From positions 1 through 23,703 of IMG/VR virus record IMGVR_UViG_3300008108_000663: a stretch of DNA of 23,703 bases; one strand, given 5' to 3'. The position numbers were made by a program, and so were the translations under genes. Position 1 is the first letter of the stretch; each line of letters opens with the position of its first letter. Shown in pieces: positions 3,277 to 15,117 of this stretch. The notes below the pieces were generated by a model. That model made no database searches and was not told the DNA's origin. It was given only the letters and a program-made list of their open reading frames with translations. The DNA is from a virus.

Positions 3277-4180
3277 TATTGGGCGGTCTATAGTCCATAA
3301 ATAAACCATGAAAGTGGTATAAAGTGACTTACTTTGGTTGAAGTGGGTTGCGGCTTGGGAAACCGAGCTCGAGTAGACAAACGAGATATCGTCTGACCTT
3401 TAGTACTGAGGGTAACACTGTAGGGAAAGTGGTTGGATGACCAAGCGATGTGGGTCGTTTGGTTGAGGTGGGAACACTAATAAGAATAACTCGTAGAATT
3501 ATTGCAAGAAGTGTTGTTATCCGACTTCATAATTGCGTTTTTCAATATTATGGTTGTCTTAAAACCGAAAGGTATGATATCGTACAGGTGGTGCTGTTGT
3601 TATCCTTAACCTTAGCCTACCAAGGCATGAGTTATGAAGATGAGCAAAAATATGGAAACAGGGATGTTTCAGAGGGTAGTTTAGTATTTAGCCGTTCAAA
3701 AGATGGCTGAGCTGGCGACGGGCCACTACCTTCACAATCCACAAACCAAATACTTTGCATTCCAAATTATGTGCAAACATTAATTAAAATCAAAGGAAAA
3801 GTGCTCGTCAGTTGTGGATGACAGGTCACTACATAGTCATGAGTTGTTCATGGCCATGAAGGGTCCCAAACCCGACATGATTTTTATGAAAGTTCTCTAA
3901 TCTCGCAAGGATTAATTGGGGTGGCAACCTCGAAGAGTGATAAGTAGTAAGAGAGTGATTCGCAACTTAAGGATTGGTTAATCTAATTGACCGTGACTGA
4001 TTATTACTACTCAAAAGGTAGTGGATGAGGGAAGAATCAATAATGTCCCGAAGATAATCACCAGAACGTGTAATCTCAGCGTTTTATTTTTCCTGATTTT
4101 AATAAATCATGGTGGTGGAGTAATAAAAAGATTCTCATGCCGCAAGGTCCCAAAGGTTAGATTTTTCTAACCTTTTTTTT
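3248..4180 (+). ncRNA. Giant structured RNA, GOLLD-like
   Basis: About 0.9 kb without a credible gene; an 86-codon frame inside looks spurious. It lies between a strong promoter with an rRNA-like leader and a strong intrinsic terminator. GC content is visibly higher than in flanking genes, as in structured RNA. Local hairpins are dense: AACACT (from 3474) with AGTGTT near 3510, GTATG/CGTAC near 3570-3585, GCCT/AGGC near 3615, CATGA/TCATG near 3838-3852, GGGT/ACCC near 3863, a GCAA-capped TAATC/GATTA stem near 3898-3914, and GGT/ACC near 3920-3930. Size, phage location and position just after a tRNA fit GOLLD RNA (about 800-900 nt), reported in phages and prophages near tRNAs; ROOL (about 600 nt) is the next candidate. 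Missing RNase P, tmRNA and group II signatures argue against those. The family call rests on size and context, not on alignment. The 5' end is inferred from the promoter. Confidence 0.6.
4152..4180 (+). terminator. Intrinsic terminator of the giant RNA
   Basis: A perfect 10-bp stem, AAAGGTTAGA/TCTAACCTTT, with a TTTT loop is followed by a run of eight T. It ends against the stop codon of the convergent CCA-adding enzyme gene, and the same hairpin could help stop that transcript, although the T-run favours the plus strand. Confidence 0.9.
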
Positions 4181-5648
4181 ATAACATATTTTTGATTATT
4201 TTTTTAATTTCGTTGATTTGGTTATCAACTCTGTATTTGTTTACAATTTCTATAGCTTCTTCTTTACTAATATTTGGATTTTCATACCACGCTTCTTGAA
4301 CTGCGTTTAATATTTCTTTAAAAATTGGTGATGGTTTTAATCCCATTTTTATAAGATCATTACCTGTTATTGGTAATTTTAATTTTGAATTATCTATATT
4401 TGAATTTAAAATTTTAATTCTTTCTCTAATATGATTTATTTGATTTGGCATTGATGATGTTTCAGAATGTGAAATATTGTCCGCATGAATTACATCTAAA
4501 ATATTTTCTAAATTATCACCAACCGATGCAATAAATTTTCTTATTGATTTATCTGACAATCCTGTCGCATCGTCACCTCCATGTTTTAATGCCATATGAT
4601 TTCTAACACCTAAAGCAACGGCGTCTATTAAATCATTTGGATATCTTAATCTCGACATTATATTTTTAACCATCTCTTCACCCGCTTTTTCATGTCCATA
4701 AAAATGAACGGATCCTTCAGGAGAGACTGTTTTTGTTAATACTTTACCTATATCATGAAATAAGGCAATTAATCTTGTTTTTAAATCATCCGGAGTTTTA
4801 GATAACACATCCATGGAATGTTTAAACACATCATCTTTATGATGTATGTTTTGTTTCATACCAACAGCATCATTAAATTCTTCAATAATGTATGATAATA
4901 AATTGGTGATTTTCAACAAACGAATTCCCTTAGACGGGTTGGGTGATAATAAAATTTTATTTAACTCATCTGAAATTCTTTCTTTTGAAATAGTATCAAT
5001 TAAAGATGAGTGTTTTCTAATTTCTTTTAAAACATCTGTGTTAATGTCAAAATCATATTTAACCGCAAATCTTATTGCTCTTAACATTCTTAAAGGATCA
5101 TCTTTAAAAATAATTTCAGACTCTGATGTAGTTCTAATTACACCATTTTTTATATCATCAATACCTTTTCCTGTTAAATCTAATATTTCACTAGTTGAAA
5201 CATTTTTCAATAAAGAGTTTATTGTTAAATCTCTTCTTAAAACATCATCAATTAATTCACCACCAGTTACATCAGGTTTTCTTGATCCCGAAGTATATTT
5301 TTCTTTTCTCGGTGCCACAAATTCCAATTCAATTGGTGGTAATCCTAATTTATTATTATTTAATGACAATTTAGAAGTACCGAATCTCGGATAAATTACA
5401 GGATTACTTTCTTCCTTAAAATTCCCTAACTTATTTGATAACCAAATAGAAAAATTAATACCAGCATCTAAATCTCCTATAACCACAAAATCTAAATCTT
5501 TTGCAGTTTTCCCCATAATTTCATCTCTAACAGCACCACCAGCCAAAAATACTTTATTTTCCCATTCAGTACCATTAATGGTATCTCTAAGAAATTTCAT
5601 TACTGTTTCTTCGTTAGTAGATTCCATTATAATTTTTTTAAGATTCAT
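4179..5648 (-). CDS. cca: CCA-adding enzyme (tRNA nucleotidyltransferase) with HD domain
   Basis: This 489-residue protein carries the full class II CCA-adding enzyme / poly(A) polymerase head: LAGGAVRD (35-42), catalytic DLD (51-53), RRDLTINSL (138-146) for template-free nucleotide selection, and DDPLRMLRAIRFA (183-195). A C-terminal HD phosphohydrolase-type domain follows, with a His at 277 and HD at 298-299 in LFHDIGK. It adds or repairs the 3' CCA of tRNA-like molecules, which matters here because neither the tRNA nor the tmRNA encodes CCA. The first residues, MNLKKIIMES, form a short leader ending I-M-E, like capsid-targeting peptides. A TATTTATA motif lies three bases before the ATG. 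A poly(A) polymerase role cannot be excluded from motifs alone. CCA enzymes are uncommon in phages. Confidence 0.93.
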   Translation of the reverse strand: MNLKKIIMESTNEETVMKFLRDTINGTEWENKVFLAGGAVRDEIMGKTAKDLDFVVIGDLDAGINFSIWLSNKLGNFKEESNPVIYPRFGTSKLSLNNNKLGLPPIELEFVAPRKEKYTSGSRKPDVTGGELIDDVLRRDLTINSLLKNVSTSEILDLTGKGIDDIKNGVIRTTSESEIIFKDDPLRMLRAIRFAVKYDFDINTDVLKEIRKHSSLIDTISKERISDELNKILLSPNPSKGIRLLKITNLLSYIIEEFNDAVGMKQNIHHKDDVFKHSMDVLSKTPDDLKTRLIALFHDIGKVLTKTVSPEGSVHFYGHEKAGEEMVKNIMSRLRYPNDLIDAVALGVRNHMALKHGGDDATGLSDKSIRKFIASVGDNLENILDVIHADNISHSETSSMPNQINHIRERIKILNSNIDNSKLKLPITGNDLIKMGLKPSPIFKEILNAVQEAWYENPNISKEEAIEIVNKYRVDNQINEIKKIIKNML

Positions 5649-5651
5649 AAT

Positions 5652-5659
5652 TATAAATA
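5652..5659 (-). promoter_or_regulatory. TATTTATA motif before the CCA enzyme gene
   Basis: An exact sense-strand copy (TATAAATA on the plus strand) ending three bases before the start codon at 5648. Confidence 0.5.
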
Positions 5660-5707
5660 TAATAATAAATTTTTGTTTTTTACAAAAAAAATTATTAAAT
5701 TGTGTTT

Positions 5708-5737
5708 ATGAGATTAATTTGTATATCAGATATGTAA
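5708..5737 (+). pseudogene. Remnant of the metallophosphoesterase 5' end
   Basis: ATG 5708 reads M-R-L-I-C-I-S-D-M and then stops at 5735. The current metallophosphoesterase begins M-C-R-I-I-C-I-S-D-T-H at 6457. Over seven codons from AGA to GAY the two copies share 16 of 21 bases, and the differences are mostly third-position changes. I read this as the original gene start, cut off when the HNH gene inserted after the eighth codon. A chance leader peptide is the alternative. Confidence 0.6.
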
Positions 5738-5753
5738 ATTATTACCATTAGTG

Positions 5754-5770
5754 ATATATTTATAATATAT
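5754..5770 (+). promoter_or_regulatory. Palindrome with TATTTATA over the HNH start codon
   Basis: The arms ATATATT and AATATAT flank a TAT loop. The motif TATTTATA (5757-5764) spans the loop, and the ATG at 5769 overlaps the right arm. The same arrangement is seen before the GIY-YIG gene. Confidence 0.45.
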
Positions 5771-6464
5771 GAATTATCAAAAAATATACGAACAAATTAT
5801 TGAACGAGCAAAAAACGAAAAAAGAAAAAAATATAATGGAATATATTATGAATCACATCATATTATTCCTAAATGTTTAGGTGGTGAAGGAAGTACAAAA
5901 CAATGGAGAACACATTCAAATATAATATTATTGACTGCTAGAGAACATTTTTTATGTCATTGGTTATTACATAATATTTATCCTGATAATGAAAAATTGG
6001 CAATGTCTTTTTGGACAATGTGTAGTTTTAAAAACAATAAACAAAAAAGATATATACCAAGTTCAAAAATTATTGAATACACAAAAATTAAGATGAGTGA
6101 AACAAAAAAAAATAAAATTGGTTATTGGAAAGGTAAAAAACTATATGAGAAAACAAAAGAAAAAATAAGTAAATCAAAAAAAGGAATTAAAATTCATAGT
6201 GAAGAAAATAAACGAAAATTGGGTGAAAGAAGTAAAGGAAACACAGATAGATTAGGGAAAAAACATACCCAAAATTCAAAAAATAAAATGAGTGAATCAA
6301 ATAAAAAACGTTATATATTAAATCCACAAATTAAAATTTCACAACGTGAAAAAATGAAAAATAAACAACAAAAAAAAGTAAAATGCCCATATTGTGACAA
6401 AGAAGGTGGAAATACAATGGGTAGATGGCATTTTGAAAATTGTAAATATAAAAATAATGTGTAG
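5769..6464 (+). CDS. HNH homing endonuclease with NUMOD3-like motifs and C-terminal zinc finger
   Basis: A 231-residue DNA endonuclease. The HNH core is ESHHIIPKCLGG (His30, His31), then NIILLTAREHFLCHWLL (Asn51, His60, His64), the usual layout of phage HNH homing enzymes. The middle holds Lys-rich helix-turn repeats of the NUMOD3 type (KISKSKKGIKIHSEENKRKLG; LGKKHTQNSKNKMSES) that bind DNA along the groove. The end is a zinc finger C206-X2-C209-X11-H221-X3-C225. The gene sits between a remnant of the metallophosphoesterase start and the intact gene, overlapping it by eight bases. There are no group I intron core sequences around it, so it is a free-standing insertion. It has its own TATTTATA motif inside a palindrome. 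Confidence 0.88.
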   Translation: MNYQKIYEQIIERAKNEKRKKYNGIYYESHHIIPKCLGGEGSTKQWRTHSNIILLTAREHFLCHWLLHNIYPDNEKLAMSFWTMCSFKNNKQKRYIPSSKIIEYTKIKMSETKKNKIGYWKGKKLYEKTKEKISKSKKGIKIHSEENKRKLGERSKGNTDRLGKKHTQNSKNKMSESNKKRYILNPQIKISQREKMKNKQQKKVKCPYCDKEGGNTMGRWHFENCKYKNNV

Positions 6465-7520: not shown

Positions 7521-7544
7521 TATATTTGTGTTAGTTCTTTAAAA
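7498..7544 (+). promoter_or_regulatory. Host-type promoter and boxA-like element of the tmRNA gene
   Basis: TTTG (7498-7501), a 19-base spacer and TATATTTG (7521-7528) match the Bacteroidetes housekeeping promoter. AGTTCTTTAAAA (7533-7544) then follows, the same boxA-like element that precedes the tRNA and the giant RNA. The mature tmRNA should begin at 7548. Confidence 0.7.
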
Positions 7545-7635
7545 TATGGGGGTGTTCAGGTATTGATTGGCGTTTATATGGTAAATGGGCACGTAGTCAG
7601 ATGTCATCTATGACTTAAATCAATGGTGGTAAAAA

Positions 7636-7704
7636 TCAAACGGCAACGTTTACAACAACATGGAAATTGCAGGTATCCTTGCAACTTCTAAAGTAGCTGC
7701 TTAA
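7636..7704 (+). other. tmRNA tag-peptide reading frame (about 22 codons)
   Basis: The frame reads from S-N-G-N-V-Y-N-N to A-T-S-K-V-A-A and then TAA TAA. The VAA end fits the C-terminal degron recognised by ClpXP-type proteases. The exact resume codon is uncertain: by alignment with the common GCA-AAC context it is TCA 7636, giving Ser as first tag residue. At about 22 residues the tag is twice the usual 8-15. Confidence 0.75.
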
Positions 7705-7918
7705 TAAGTACCTACTATCGGGTCGGTTAGGACATATAACCCAGGAACAGAAGTCCGTAATACGGGTCACAGGTCAGAGCTCGTTTAAAATAATTCTGAG
7801 ACCAAGTTGTTTGTAGGTAGGTTTCTCACATATATCAAACCTAATATTTCGGAACATTGAGAAACAATGTTGTACTAAACGTGTAGTCCATTTATGATGT
7901 GGCGAACAAGACGAGGGT

Positions 7919-8110
7919 AAAATCGAGCCCCTTCATATCGTGAGATATGTCGAAAATCGGATGAATTCAGGGGAAGTCAGAAATGATTATCCTGAGCCAA
8001 GACTGGTAGGAACAGTAAGGTGCAGAGACTAGTGGGTGATAGACGCTTCTATCGTAATACCACATCAGCGTCCGACATCTCAATGAGATGATGATATAGT
8101 CCACTTGTTG
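7919..8110 (+). mobile_element. ORF-less group I intron in tmRNA
   Basis: Core elements are clear: Q-like ATCCTGAGCCAAG (7989-8001), R-like GTGCAGAGACTA (8020-8031) and S-like GATATAGTCC (8093-8102). GACTA of R pairs with TAGTC of S to form P7. The 5' exon ends GAGGGT and can pair with GCCC just inside the intron, giving P1 with the expected U-G pair at the splice site. TCGA next to that guide matches the 3' exon start TCGA, giving P10. The last intron base is G8110. Excision at these borders restores a perfect T-arm. The intron is 192 bases and has no ORF, so it would need an endonuclease in trans to move; the adjacent HNH gene is a candidate. Confidence 0.92.
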
Positions 8111-8137
8111 TCGAATCCCTCCACCTCCACTTTAATC

Positions 8138-8163
8138 AAAAGGGACCTTATTAGGTCCCTTTT
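8138..8163. terminator. Bidirectional terminator shared by tmRNA and HNH gene
   Basis: A perfect 10-bp stem, AAAAGGGACC/GGTCCCTTTT, with loop TTATTA. On the plus strand a T-run follows; on the minus strand the opposing A-tract also gives T residues. The HNH stop codon (8151-8153) lies in the loop. Confidence 0.9.
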
Positions 8164-8669
8164 TTGTTTTTTACTAAAATTTCAATTAAGTCATTAACTT
8201 GTTTATCTGACATATCATTTTTCATCCAATTTATTACCCTTGATACCCATCTAATATTATTTTTCACATAACCTAATGAACTATCAATCCTATCCAATGA
8301 AGCGGAATAAATCGGATTTTTTTTAATTTTACTATACGATGATAATTCTAACTTCACACCACTAAATGGACAAATACCGTTTTGAACATCCCATTGGTTG
8401 ATTAAATCAATAATTGTCACATCAACAATTTGATTTCTTTTCTTTATATTTCTGAAATGATAATTGAATTTAACGTGATTACTTTTTCTATTGTCACTGT
8501 GTTTAGCGATATTATATCGATTAACGACATTCAATAAATTTTTAGTATTGTTTACTCCGACACAACTTCTTGAACAAAAATTTGGTCTGGATAATTTTTT
8601 ATTACGATTTATTTCTGAGTTAGATTTTTCAAACTCAACTCCACAATTTGCACATATACATTTTCCCAT
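8151..8669 (-). CDS. HNH endonuclease with N-terminal zinc finger, probable homing enzyme
   Basis: A 172-residue protein starting MGKCICANCG. Residues 6-36 hold a four-Cys zinc finger (C6-X2-C9, C32-X3-C36 in FCSRSC). The C-terminal half has CPFSGVKL (100-107) and SLDRIDSSLGYVKNNIRWV (124-142), the beta-beta-alpha metal core of His-Me finger endonucleases common in phages. The frame stays open upstream (a TTG start at 8726 is possible), but ATG 8669 places the zinc finger at the N-terminus as in relatives. This ATG lies in one arm of a perfect 22-base palindrome (8661-8682). The gene converges on the intron-containing tmRNA and shares its terminator. It may be the mobility enzyme for that intron or an independent selfish gene. 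Confidence 0.8.
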   Translation of the reverse strand: MGKCICANCGVEFEKSNSEINRNKKLSRPNFCSRSCVGVNNTKNLLNVVNRYNIAKHSDNRKSNHVKFNYHFRNIKKRNQIVDVTIIDLINQWDVQNGICPFSGVKLELSSYSKIKKNPIYSASLDRIDSSLGYVKNNIRWVSRVINWMKNDMSDKQVNDLIEILVKNKKGT

Positions 8670-8682: not shown

Positions 8683-8723
8683 AGTATGGAGATGGGTTTT
8701 TTATTTGGTAGGTCTATAACGAA

Positions 8724-14194: not shown

Positions 14195-14572
14195 ATGGAC
14201 ATATCTATTAAATTTTTATTACAATCCGTTAAAGTTTTAAACGAAAAAAAATATAGTAATGAAGATTTATATTTGATTTATGATTTTTTAATATCTTCTA
14301 CAAAAAATGAATTATTTAATTTTTACTATTTAAATACTGTTTTATCATATAAAAACGATTTAGAATTGTTTATTGAAACCATAAAACAGTTAATAAAAAT
14401 ATTTGAGGATTTAGAGTATTATGAAGAATGTTTTCATCTTAAGAATAAAGAAAATGAATGTTATGAAATATTAAAAGAAAATTCTTTGTATTTAAAAATA
14501 AAACCTTTTGCCTTTTTAAACTTCCCATTACAACAACCCGAAATATACGTCTTATGTATATTCAATATTTGA
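14195..14572 (+). CDS. Unknown helical protein, 3' end overlapped by the GIY-YIG gene
   Basis: A 125-residue, mostly helical protein (MDISIKFLLQSVKVLNEKKY; ELFIETIKQLIKIFEDLEYY). No family is recognised. The last 37 codons run antisense into the 3' end of the convergent GIY-YIG gene (overlap 14461-14572), and the end (KPFAFLNFPLQQPEIYVLCI) is uncharged and unlike the rest. The original C-terminus was probably replaced when the endonuclease gene inserted. Confidence 0.6.
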   Translation: MDISIKFLLQSVKVLNEKKYSNEDLYLIYDFLISSTKNELFNFYYLNTVLSYKNDLELFIETIKQLIKIFEDLEYYEECFHLKNKENECYEILKENSLYLKIKPFAFLNFPLQQPEIYVLCIFNI

Positions 14573-15117
14573 CAAGCATCTTTTAATGATTCAAATTCAA
14601 ATAATAATTTACCATCTAAGTCAAATTGTTGAACTTTTTTTCTATTAACAGAGGGTTTACCGTAGTTCCAATTTTCAACACCCGACTTTCCATTCTGTGG
14701 CATTTTTTTACCATAATTATGATGATTTGTTCCGGTTTTACCAAACATCGGGTTTGCGTATCCAATACCTAATCCCTTCTTAGATTTTGATATCAAATCT
14801 TTAGTTTCTTTTGAATGAGTTTTACCTAAAAATCCATTGTTTGGGATTTTTTCAATATTATAATGTGGATTATATTTTATAAAATACAAATGTTCTATTT
14901 TTTTGAGTTTGTTTTTTTCAAAAACTTCTTCTACTAATTTAAATTCAAATGATTCTTCACCATACTTATTCCATGCTCTTTGTAATATACATGAGTGATG
15001 TTTATTCTTTCTTAAATCTGATTTATGTTTTGATATCCTTTGTTTAATGTTGACAGAAGAACCAATATAAATTTTACCATTATTTTTATTCTCTATGAAA
15101 TATATTCCCATTTTCAT
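14461..15117 (-). CDS. GIY-YIG homing endonuclease with NUMOD motifs
   Basis: A 218-residue endonuclease of the Seg/I-TevI type. The catalytic domain has G4-I-Y6, Y17-I-G19, Arg27 and Glu75 (in KKIEHLYF), the residues that form the single-metal active site of this family. The middle carries NUMOD3-like DNA-binding repeats (GKTHSKETKDLISKSKKG; NPMFGKTGTNHHNYGK). The C-terminus is a NUMOD1-like helix-turn-helix (VQQFDLDGKLLFEFESLKDA, then CQILNIHKTYISGCCNGKFK). It makes site-specific double-strand breaks that copy its own gene into related genomes. The TATTTATA motif and the ATG lie in a perfect inverted repeat. It overlaps the convergent gene at 14195 by 112 bases. Confidence 0.93.
   Translation of the reverse strand: MKMGIYFIENKNNGKIYIGSSVNIKQRISKHKSDLRKNKHHSCILQRAWNKYGEESFEFKLVEEVFEKNKLKKIEHLYFIKYNPHYNIEKIPNNGFLGKTHSKETKDLISKSKKGLGIGYANPMFGKTGTNHHNYGKKMPQNGKSGVENWNYGKPSVNRKKVQQFDLDGKLLFEFESLKDACQILNIHKTYISGCCNGKFKKAKGFIFKYKEFSFNIS

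Follow-up and report, generated by a model that had tools for sequence, protein, structure and literature searches.

The locus described here raises two questions: (i) whether a phage tmRNA gene is interrupted in its T-loop by an intron, and between which bases; and (ii) how an intron without an open reading frame is kept and spread at such a site. The DNA is a stretch of 23,703 nt from the IMG/VR viral record IMGVR_UViG_3300008108_000663, referred to below as the window, and the features on which the argument depends are as follows (+ and − denote the strand).

4179-5648, tRNA nucleotidyltransferase gene
7521-7528, +, TATATTTG, 5′ of the tmRNA and fitting the Bacteroidota −7 element TAnnTTTG
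7548-7918, +, tmRNA exon 1 (371 nt), with acceptor 5′ strand GGGGGUG, tag frame, T-stem 5′ strand and T-loop base 1; placed by the RF00023 start at 7548 and by 96% identity to intron-free L108 along the full spliced sequence
7639-7704, +, tag reading frame NGNVYNNMEIAGILATSKVAA plus stop, from translation; the resume codon is not certain
7919-8110, +, ORF-less group IA intron of 192 nt, ending in G, between T-loop bases 1 and 2; from RF00028, border deletion and covariation
7915-7930, +, P1: GGGU (7915-7918) with GCCC (7927-7930), U.G at the 5′ splice site
7923-7926 and 8111-8114, +, P10: UCGA paired with UCGA, from sequence
8027-8101, +, P7: GACTA (8027-8031) with TAGTC (8097-8101), enclosing P7.1/P7.2 and P8 (8076-8090)
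8111-8129, +, tmRNA exon 2 (19 nt), with the remaining T-loop, T-stem 3′ strand and acceptor 3′ strand CACCUCC with G3.U70 and A73; from sequence and relatives
8138-8163, +, intrinsic terminator following the tmRNA; the convergent HNH gene overlaps it with its end
8151-8669, −, putative HNH/Endo VII-like endonuclease gene, free-standing (172 aa; coding part 8154-8669, then stop); its end lies about 22 nt past the tmRNA
8686-8694, −, CATCTCCAT motif upstream of the HNH start, resembling the tmRNA 3′ end CACCTCCAC (8122-8130, +)

The tmRNA gene has an acceptor stem with G3.U70, a T-arm and a tag frame ending in small residues, and near-identical tags occur in intron-free L079 and others. The earlier note had suggested a check against the Rfam tmRNA model (RF00023), which was borne out in part: the match to the unspliced DNA starts at exactly 7548, but it scores 30.9 bits, under the cut-off of 47, and its 3′ end is misplaced within the intron. 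Against the same model, the intron-free allele, which has 96% identity with the spliced tmRNA of the window, scores 86.8 bits. ARAGORN called no tmRNA in either the interrupted or the spliced gene, and the cause is probably an unusual D-arm region, GGTATTGATTGG, a variant common to the whole tmRNA family. The gene ends in A73 without an encoded CCA, which could be added to the tmRNA by the tRNA nucleotidyltransferase of the window. The −7 element TAnnTTTG is present in 56 of 94 upstream regions (background 5.8%), and this enrichment suggests Bacteroidota hosts.

As the earlier note had anticipated, the Rfam group I model (Intron_gpI, RF00028) matches, over 7909-8120, with 61.7 bits (E 1.2e-13, cut-off 50). 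Deletions were scanned with the first removed base at 7901-7940 and a length of at least 120, and removal of 7919-8110 was the sole one tested that gave GAGGG-TTCRANY-CCCTC-CACCTCC; the 390-nt product has the T-arm GAGGG-TTCGAAT-CCCTC, followed by acceptor strand CACCTCC. It aligns with intron-free L108/L123 over all 390 nt, and because this alignment runs end to end, the borders are read from an empty site and not from ribozyme rules alone. They are the borders that had first been proposed, 7919 and 8110.

The P7, P1 (with U.G) and P10 pairings described in the same note are likewise all present, together with helices P3, P4, P5 and P6, and the P1/P10 elements recur in other introns at this site (site 2, as defined below). 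The P7.1/P7.2 extension presumably places the window intron in subgroup IA. In 13 distinct site-2 introns, 96.7% of helix cells pair and 14 pairs have changed on both sides, a result equalled by none of 500 shuffles (paired cells plus covariation score) and far above all slid controls; P3 and P7 are invariant, and their own covariation carries no information. Across the intron, T-stem pairs 1 and 2 covary, with four standard pair types each and a single mismatch in 66 cells from 33 distinct introns. Within the intron, no stop-free run exceeds 47 codons, a length reached on the minus strand. Likeness of the intron to other phage introns reflects the common core. These results confirm the reading of 7548-8129 as a phage tmRNA split in its T-loop by a predicted self-splicing group I intron; self-splicing itself we infer from the sequence.

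A pattern for the tmRNA 5′ end retrieved 115 stretches from IMG/VR. In this tmRNA family, 72 intron-free genes, 61 of them distinct, and about 46 intron-bearing ones were resolved. The intron-free allele of the window tmRNA sits in a 287-kb phage contig. Twenty introns follow T-loop base 1 (IGS GCCC, exon TCGA) and 26 follow base 2 (IGS GACCC, exon CGA); these positions are sites 2 and 3 in the numbering of PMC11915505, taken as internucleotide loop positions in our understanding of its Figure 2 legend. The introns are patchy among intron-free relatives: in the tmRNA tree, a minimum of 14 changes between presence and absence fall on branches with good support. In four site-3 introns (L172, L184, L185 and L200), the T-loop is restored only if the intron ends in A (...TTTA, then exon CGA) and not in the near-universal G; they are either inactive or rare final-A introns. 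L166, at a contig end, joins the 5′ half of a site-2 intron to the 3′ half of a site-3 intron. A long identical stretch separates its match to L021-like introns from its match to L175-like ones, and it was set aside as a probable assembly chimera. The exact intron-end pattern, which would miss divergent copies, revealed no copy in a bacterial host; its only match in a bacterial genome (L168) is coding DNA and was dismissed as a chance match.

The endonuclease gene beside the tmRNA is absent from the earlier note. Its protein matches PHROG endonuclease families (E 2.3e-20 and 6.9e-13), whose profiles match all 20 members of the HNH family, and residues D126, R127, N138 and N147 are invariant. 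A Pfam search of the protein gave no HNH match and no nuclease domain, among solved structures the sequence search matched only PacI, and weakly (E 0.016), and the AlphaFold prediction for the family is of low confidence (pLDDT 53.5). We propose that the product of 8154-8669 is a putative homing endonuclease that acts in trans. The HNH proteins of L189 and L183 are near-identical save for the first ~35 residues (the zinc-finger part), which suggests domain exchange.

An adjacent endonuclease gene is found in 27 of 39 distinct intron-bearing tmRNAs versus 3 of 58 distinct intron-free ones (Fisher 1.2e-11). Related contigs inflate such simple counts; of 14 phylogenetically independent pairs from the tree, 8 have the two traits going the same way and, on average, 0.5 have them going opposite ways (median p 0.016). 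The position just past the tmRNA is occupied by an HNH relative in 30 intron-bearing loci and by a LAGLIDADG gene in three others (L026, L056 and L200). The remaining 12 distinct intron-bearing tmRNAs have no adjacent endonuclease, and a search for endonuclease remnants near them found none.

Intron and endonuclease are also jointly missing from the close relatives L123 and L108, and between the window and L123 the flanking sequence has 85-93% identity on the tmRNA side, with greater divergence past the HNH gene. In the tmRNA tree the window clusters with L108, L190, L110, L080, L164 and L165 (100/100); in the intron tree its intron clusters with L026, L012, L051 and L100 (100/100). Although the exons are nearest those of L110 (0.89), the intron is nearest those of L100/L051 (0.91/0.85 versus 0.74), as is the HNH protein (0.74/0.75 versus 0.62). 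Given the exons, intron and HNH identities are correlated (partial Mantel 0.68, p 2e-4, approximate on related sequences). Together, these comparisons indicate that the intron and the HNH gene of the window were inherited together.

IMG/VR was also searched with the HNH alignment, so that loci were not picked by their tmRNA. Among the best 80 loci, a tmRNA lies within 600 nt in 79, a few of them judged by eye, the exception being L255. In L259 and L279 the HNH gene is antisense within the T-loop intron and past it lies the 3′ exon CGACTCCC, and L256 has a similar layout in a locus cut by the contig end. GGG adjoins the T-loop in every intron-bearing tmRNA, as P1 requires. In the intron-free tmRNAs beside an HNH gene, GGG is mostly missing or the loop is changed; by hand count this holds for about 24 of the 27 distinct arms in the endonuclease-first set, examples being GAGGC-TTCGAT-GCCTC, AGCGG-TTCGACT-CCGCT, GAGAT-TTCGACT-ATCTC, GAGGG-AGTCGGAG-CCCTC and CGGAA-GGCAGTA-TTCCG. 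In the set picked by the tmRNA 5′ end alone, T-arms are altered in 5 of 5 with the HNH gene versus 5 of 56 without it (Fisher 4e-5, related loci included). Three distinct canonical T-arms also stand beside an HNH relative (L249/L250, L258 and L272). Stem pairing in the altered arms is kept while the letters change, a pattern that would fit escape from a DNA-cutting enzyme with the RNA still working. T-loops of 6 or 8 nt occur among these remodelled phage tmRNAs. Loops without TTCRA (GGCAGTA, GGCAGAG, GGCGGTA, the 8-nt AGTCGGAG and variants), all beside an HNH gene, were noted in L221, L222, L243, L253, L260, L262-L264, L266, L274, L275 and L277.

Upstream of the HNH start codons are one or two copies of CAYCTCCA, which matches the tmRNA 3′ end CACCTCCAC; double copies are spaced about 17-21 nt apart. 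When the motif was searched as CAYYTCCA, at least one copy was present in 46 of 63 cases (background 2.1%) and two copies in 24 of 63 (0.05%). A composite of CAYCTCCA and ATATTTAT precedes 29 distinct HNH genes and two LAGLIDADG genes, and is otherwise all but absent from the loci that were fetched. Because two unrelated enzymes have it, the composite may be a common cassette promoter rather than the binding site of a single protein. Copies of CAYCTCCA, often in tandem pairs, are seen upstream of tmRNA-adjacent endonuclease genes of both the HNH and the LAGLIDADG kind, for HNH genes among L205-L284, and have the opposite orientation in the codirectional subfamily.

We consider it probable that collaborative homing, in partnership with the free-standing HNH gene just past the tmRNA, both maintains the ORF-less group IA intron in the T-loop and spreads it. 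The endonuclease would cut the T-arm sequence of intron-free tmRNA genes in co-infecting phages, and repair from the donor would copy the intron, the 19-nt exon and the adjoining endonuclease gene. The intron, or a remodelled T-arm, would shield the donor from self-cutting, and splicing would restore a presumably functional tmRNA of 390 nt, so that the insertion would cost little. The precedent is F-CphI of cyanophage S-PM2, a free-standing enzyme with an Endo VII motif that cuts intron-free psbA and is blocked by the intron (PMC6083498); we infer the same mechanism here, with the tmRNA as target. Several observations argue for homing: an adjacent endonuclease goes with the intron, also in independent pairs; 79 of the 80 best endonuclease relatives have a tmRNA close by; the same place is occupied by an HNH gene or an unrelated LAGLIDADG gene; the composite introns of L259 and L279 have the form predicted by the collaborative homing model, in which the endonuclease becomes embedded in the intron (PMC3984707); the intron-free tmRNAs beside HNH genes have altered T-arms, as if immune; and L123 has neither intron nor HNH gene, while the intron and HNH gene of the window differ from its exons in their affinities. 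Counting against homing are the 12 intron-bearing tmRNAs that have no endonuclease, the canonical arms beside HNH genes, the altered arms without one (5 of 56), and the pLDDT of 53.5 and lack of a Pfam nuclease domain in the HNH protein.

Some of these same facts would fit a scenario in which the endonuclease gene hitch-hikes: homing genes would use the tmRNA 3′ flank as a landing site, and the intron would travel on its own through rare recombination. In addition to the 12 endonuclease-less loci, at least three intron-free tmRNAs have an endonuclease, and the window contains other homing genes (5769-6464 and 14461-15117). However, the association of intron and endonuclease holds under phylogenetic control, the two are co-transferred, T-arms are altered beside HNH genes, and the HNH gene lies within the same intron in L259/L279, all of which makes independent spread unlikely. 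A different possibility, raised in the earlier note, is that splicing serves as a regulatory switch on ribosome rescue during infection. Its premise stands, in that a broken T-arm implies that splicing is needed before the tmRNA can work: the unspliced RNA has no T-arm, so aminoacylation or ribosome entry should await splicing. The switch itself fares poorly against the closest relative, an intron-free allele 96% identical, against the patchy distribution with its minimum of 14 changes on supported branches, and against a 192-nt intron that has no extra regulatory domain. We regard it as very improbable, and the adjoining endonuclease gene as a better explanation of the intron. The view that the gene is a degenerate tmRNA copy, with the intron residing in a pseudogene, could draw on a D-arm region off the usual consensus and on the ARAGORN miss even when spliced; but the acceptor, G3.U70, the tag frame and the T-stem have all been kept, T-stem covariation extends across the intron, the D-arm variant is shared by the family, and SmpB is encoded in some contigs (3 of the 28 tested), so that decay is scarcely credible.

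T-loop introns of tmRNA and collaborative homing are each already known. The earlier note had called such introns rare, which is at odds with PMC11915505: that source reports 883 unique intron-form tmRNAs, all interrupted in the T-loop and catalogued at four sites, with site 2 in Anaerolineae and one Myxococcota, site 3 in Bacteroidia, and LAGLIDADG genes within 23 of 844 introns. The phage genes resemble these bacterial ones in having a T-loop group I intron with U.G in P1 and a final G at sites 2 and 3, and differ in that both sites occur in one phage lineage and free-standing endonucleases lie outside the gene. Endonuclease genes are tied to tmRNA introns in both, but here they are mostly outside the intron and of the HNH rather than the LAGLIDADG type. 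With the psbA/F-CphI system (PMC6083498; PMC3984707) the locus shares an ORF-less phage group I intron, an adjoining free-standing Endo VII-like endonuclease and a presumably protective intron. Unlike that system, the target would be an RNA gene (the tmRNA T-arm), two unrelated endonuclease families are present, there are many intron-free altered target alleles, and intron-embedded versions of the same enzyme exist. As far as checked, the combination is new, as are the tmRNA-bound endonuclease family, the use of both neighbouring sites within a single phage lineage, and the remodelled T-arms, although single intron-bearing genes may exist among the 79 phage tmRNAs of PMC11915505.

Collaborative homing at this locus would reveal how tmRNA genes acquire introns and how these pass from one such gene to another; the ORF-less majority of the introns has been catalogued without a mobility mechanism. 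One locus type presents all stages: empty site, intron alone, intron with neighbouring endonuclease, embedded endonuclease, and endonuclease beside an altered target. The function of tmRNAs with unusual T-loops is open to direct test. A broader proposal, which we judge as likely as not, is that Bacteroidota phages carry an endonuclease family dedicated to the tmRNA T-arm, that phages survive it through a T-loop intron or a remodelled T-arm, and that the enzyme thereby drives the evolution of a near-invariant RNA element; the copies of the tmRNA 3′ end in its promoter may act as an operator.

Finally, we note some features of the genomic setting. Related contigs reach 318 kb, a contractile tail sheath gene is present in 9 of the 15 tested (7 above the curated cut-off), and L123 has 21 tRNA genes. 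A blastn search of isolated phages found none with a similar tmRNA, and Terminase_6C gave no information. The homing genes elsewhere in the window are a NUMOD3 homing-type endonuclease gene (5769-6464) and a GIY-YIG endonuclease gene with NUMOD domains (14461-15117, minus strand); the block comprising the tRNA nucleotidyltransferase and NUMOD3 genes (4179-6464) is missing from the close relative L123. A GOLLD RNA (320.8 bits) lies at 3672-4082, near tRNA and tmRNA genes; GOLLD is also present in 7 of 28 related contigs, and in several endonuclease-first loci it adjoins the tmRNA/HNH pair. In L079, a tRNA model match is spread across 130 nt (8306-8435), perhaps a tRNA with an insertion.
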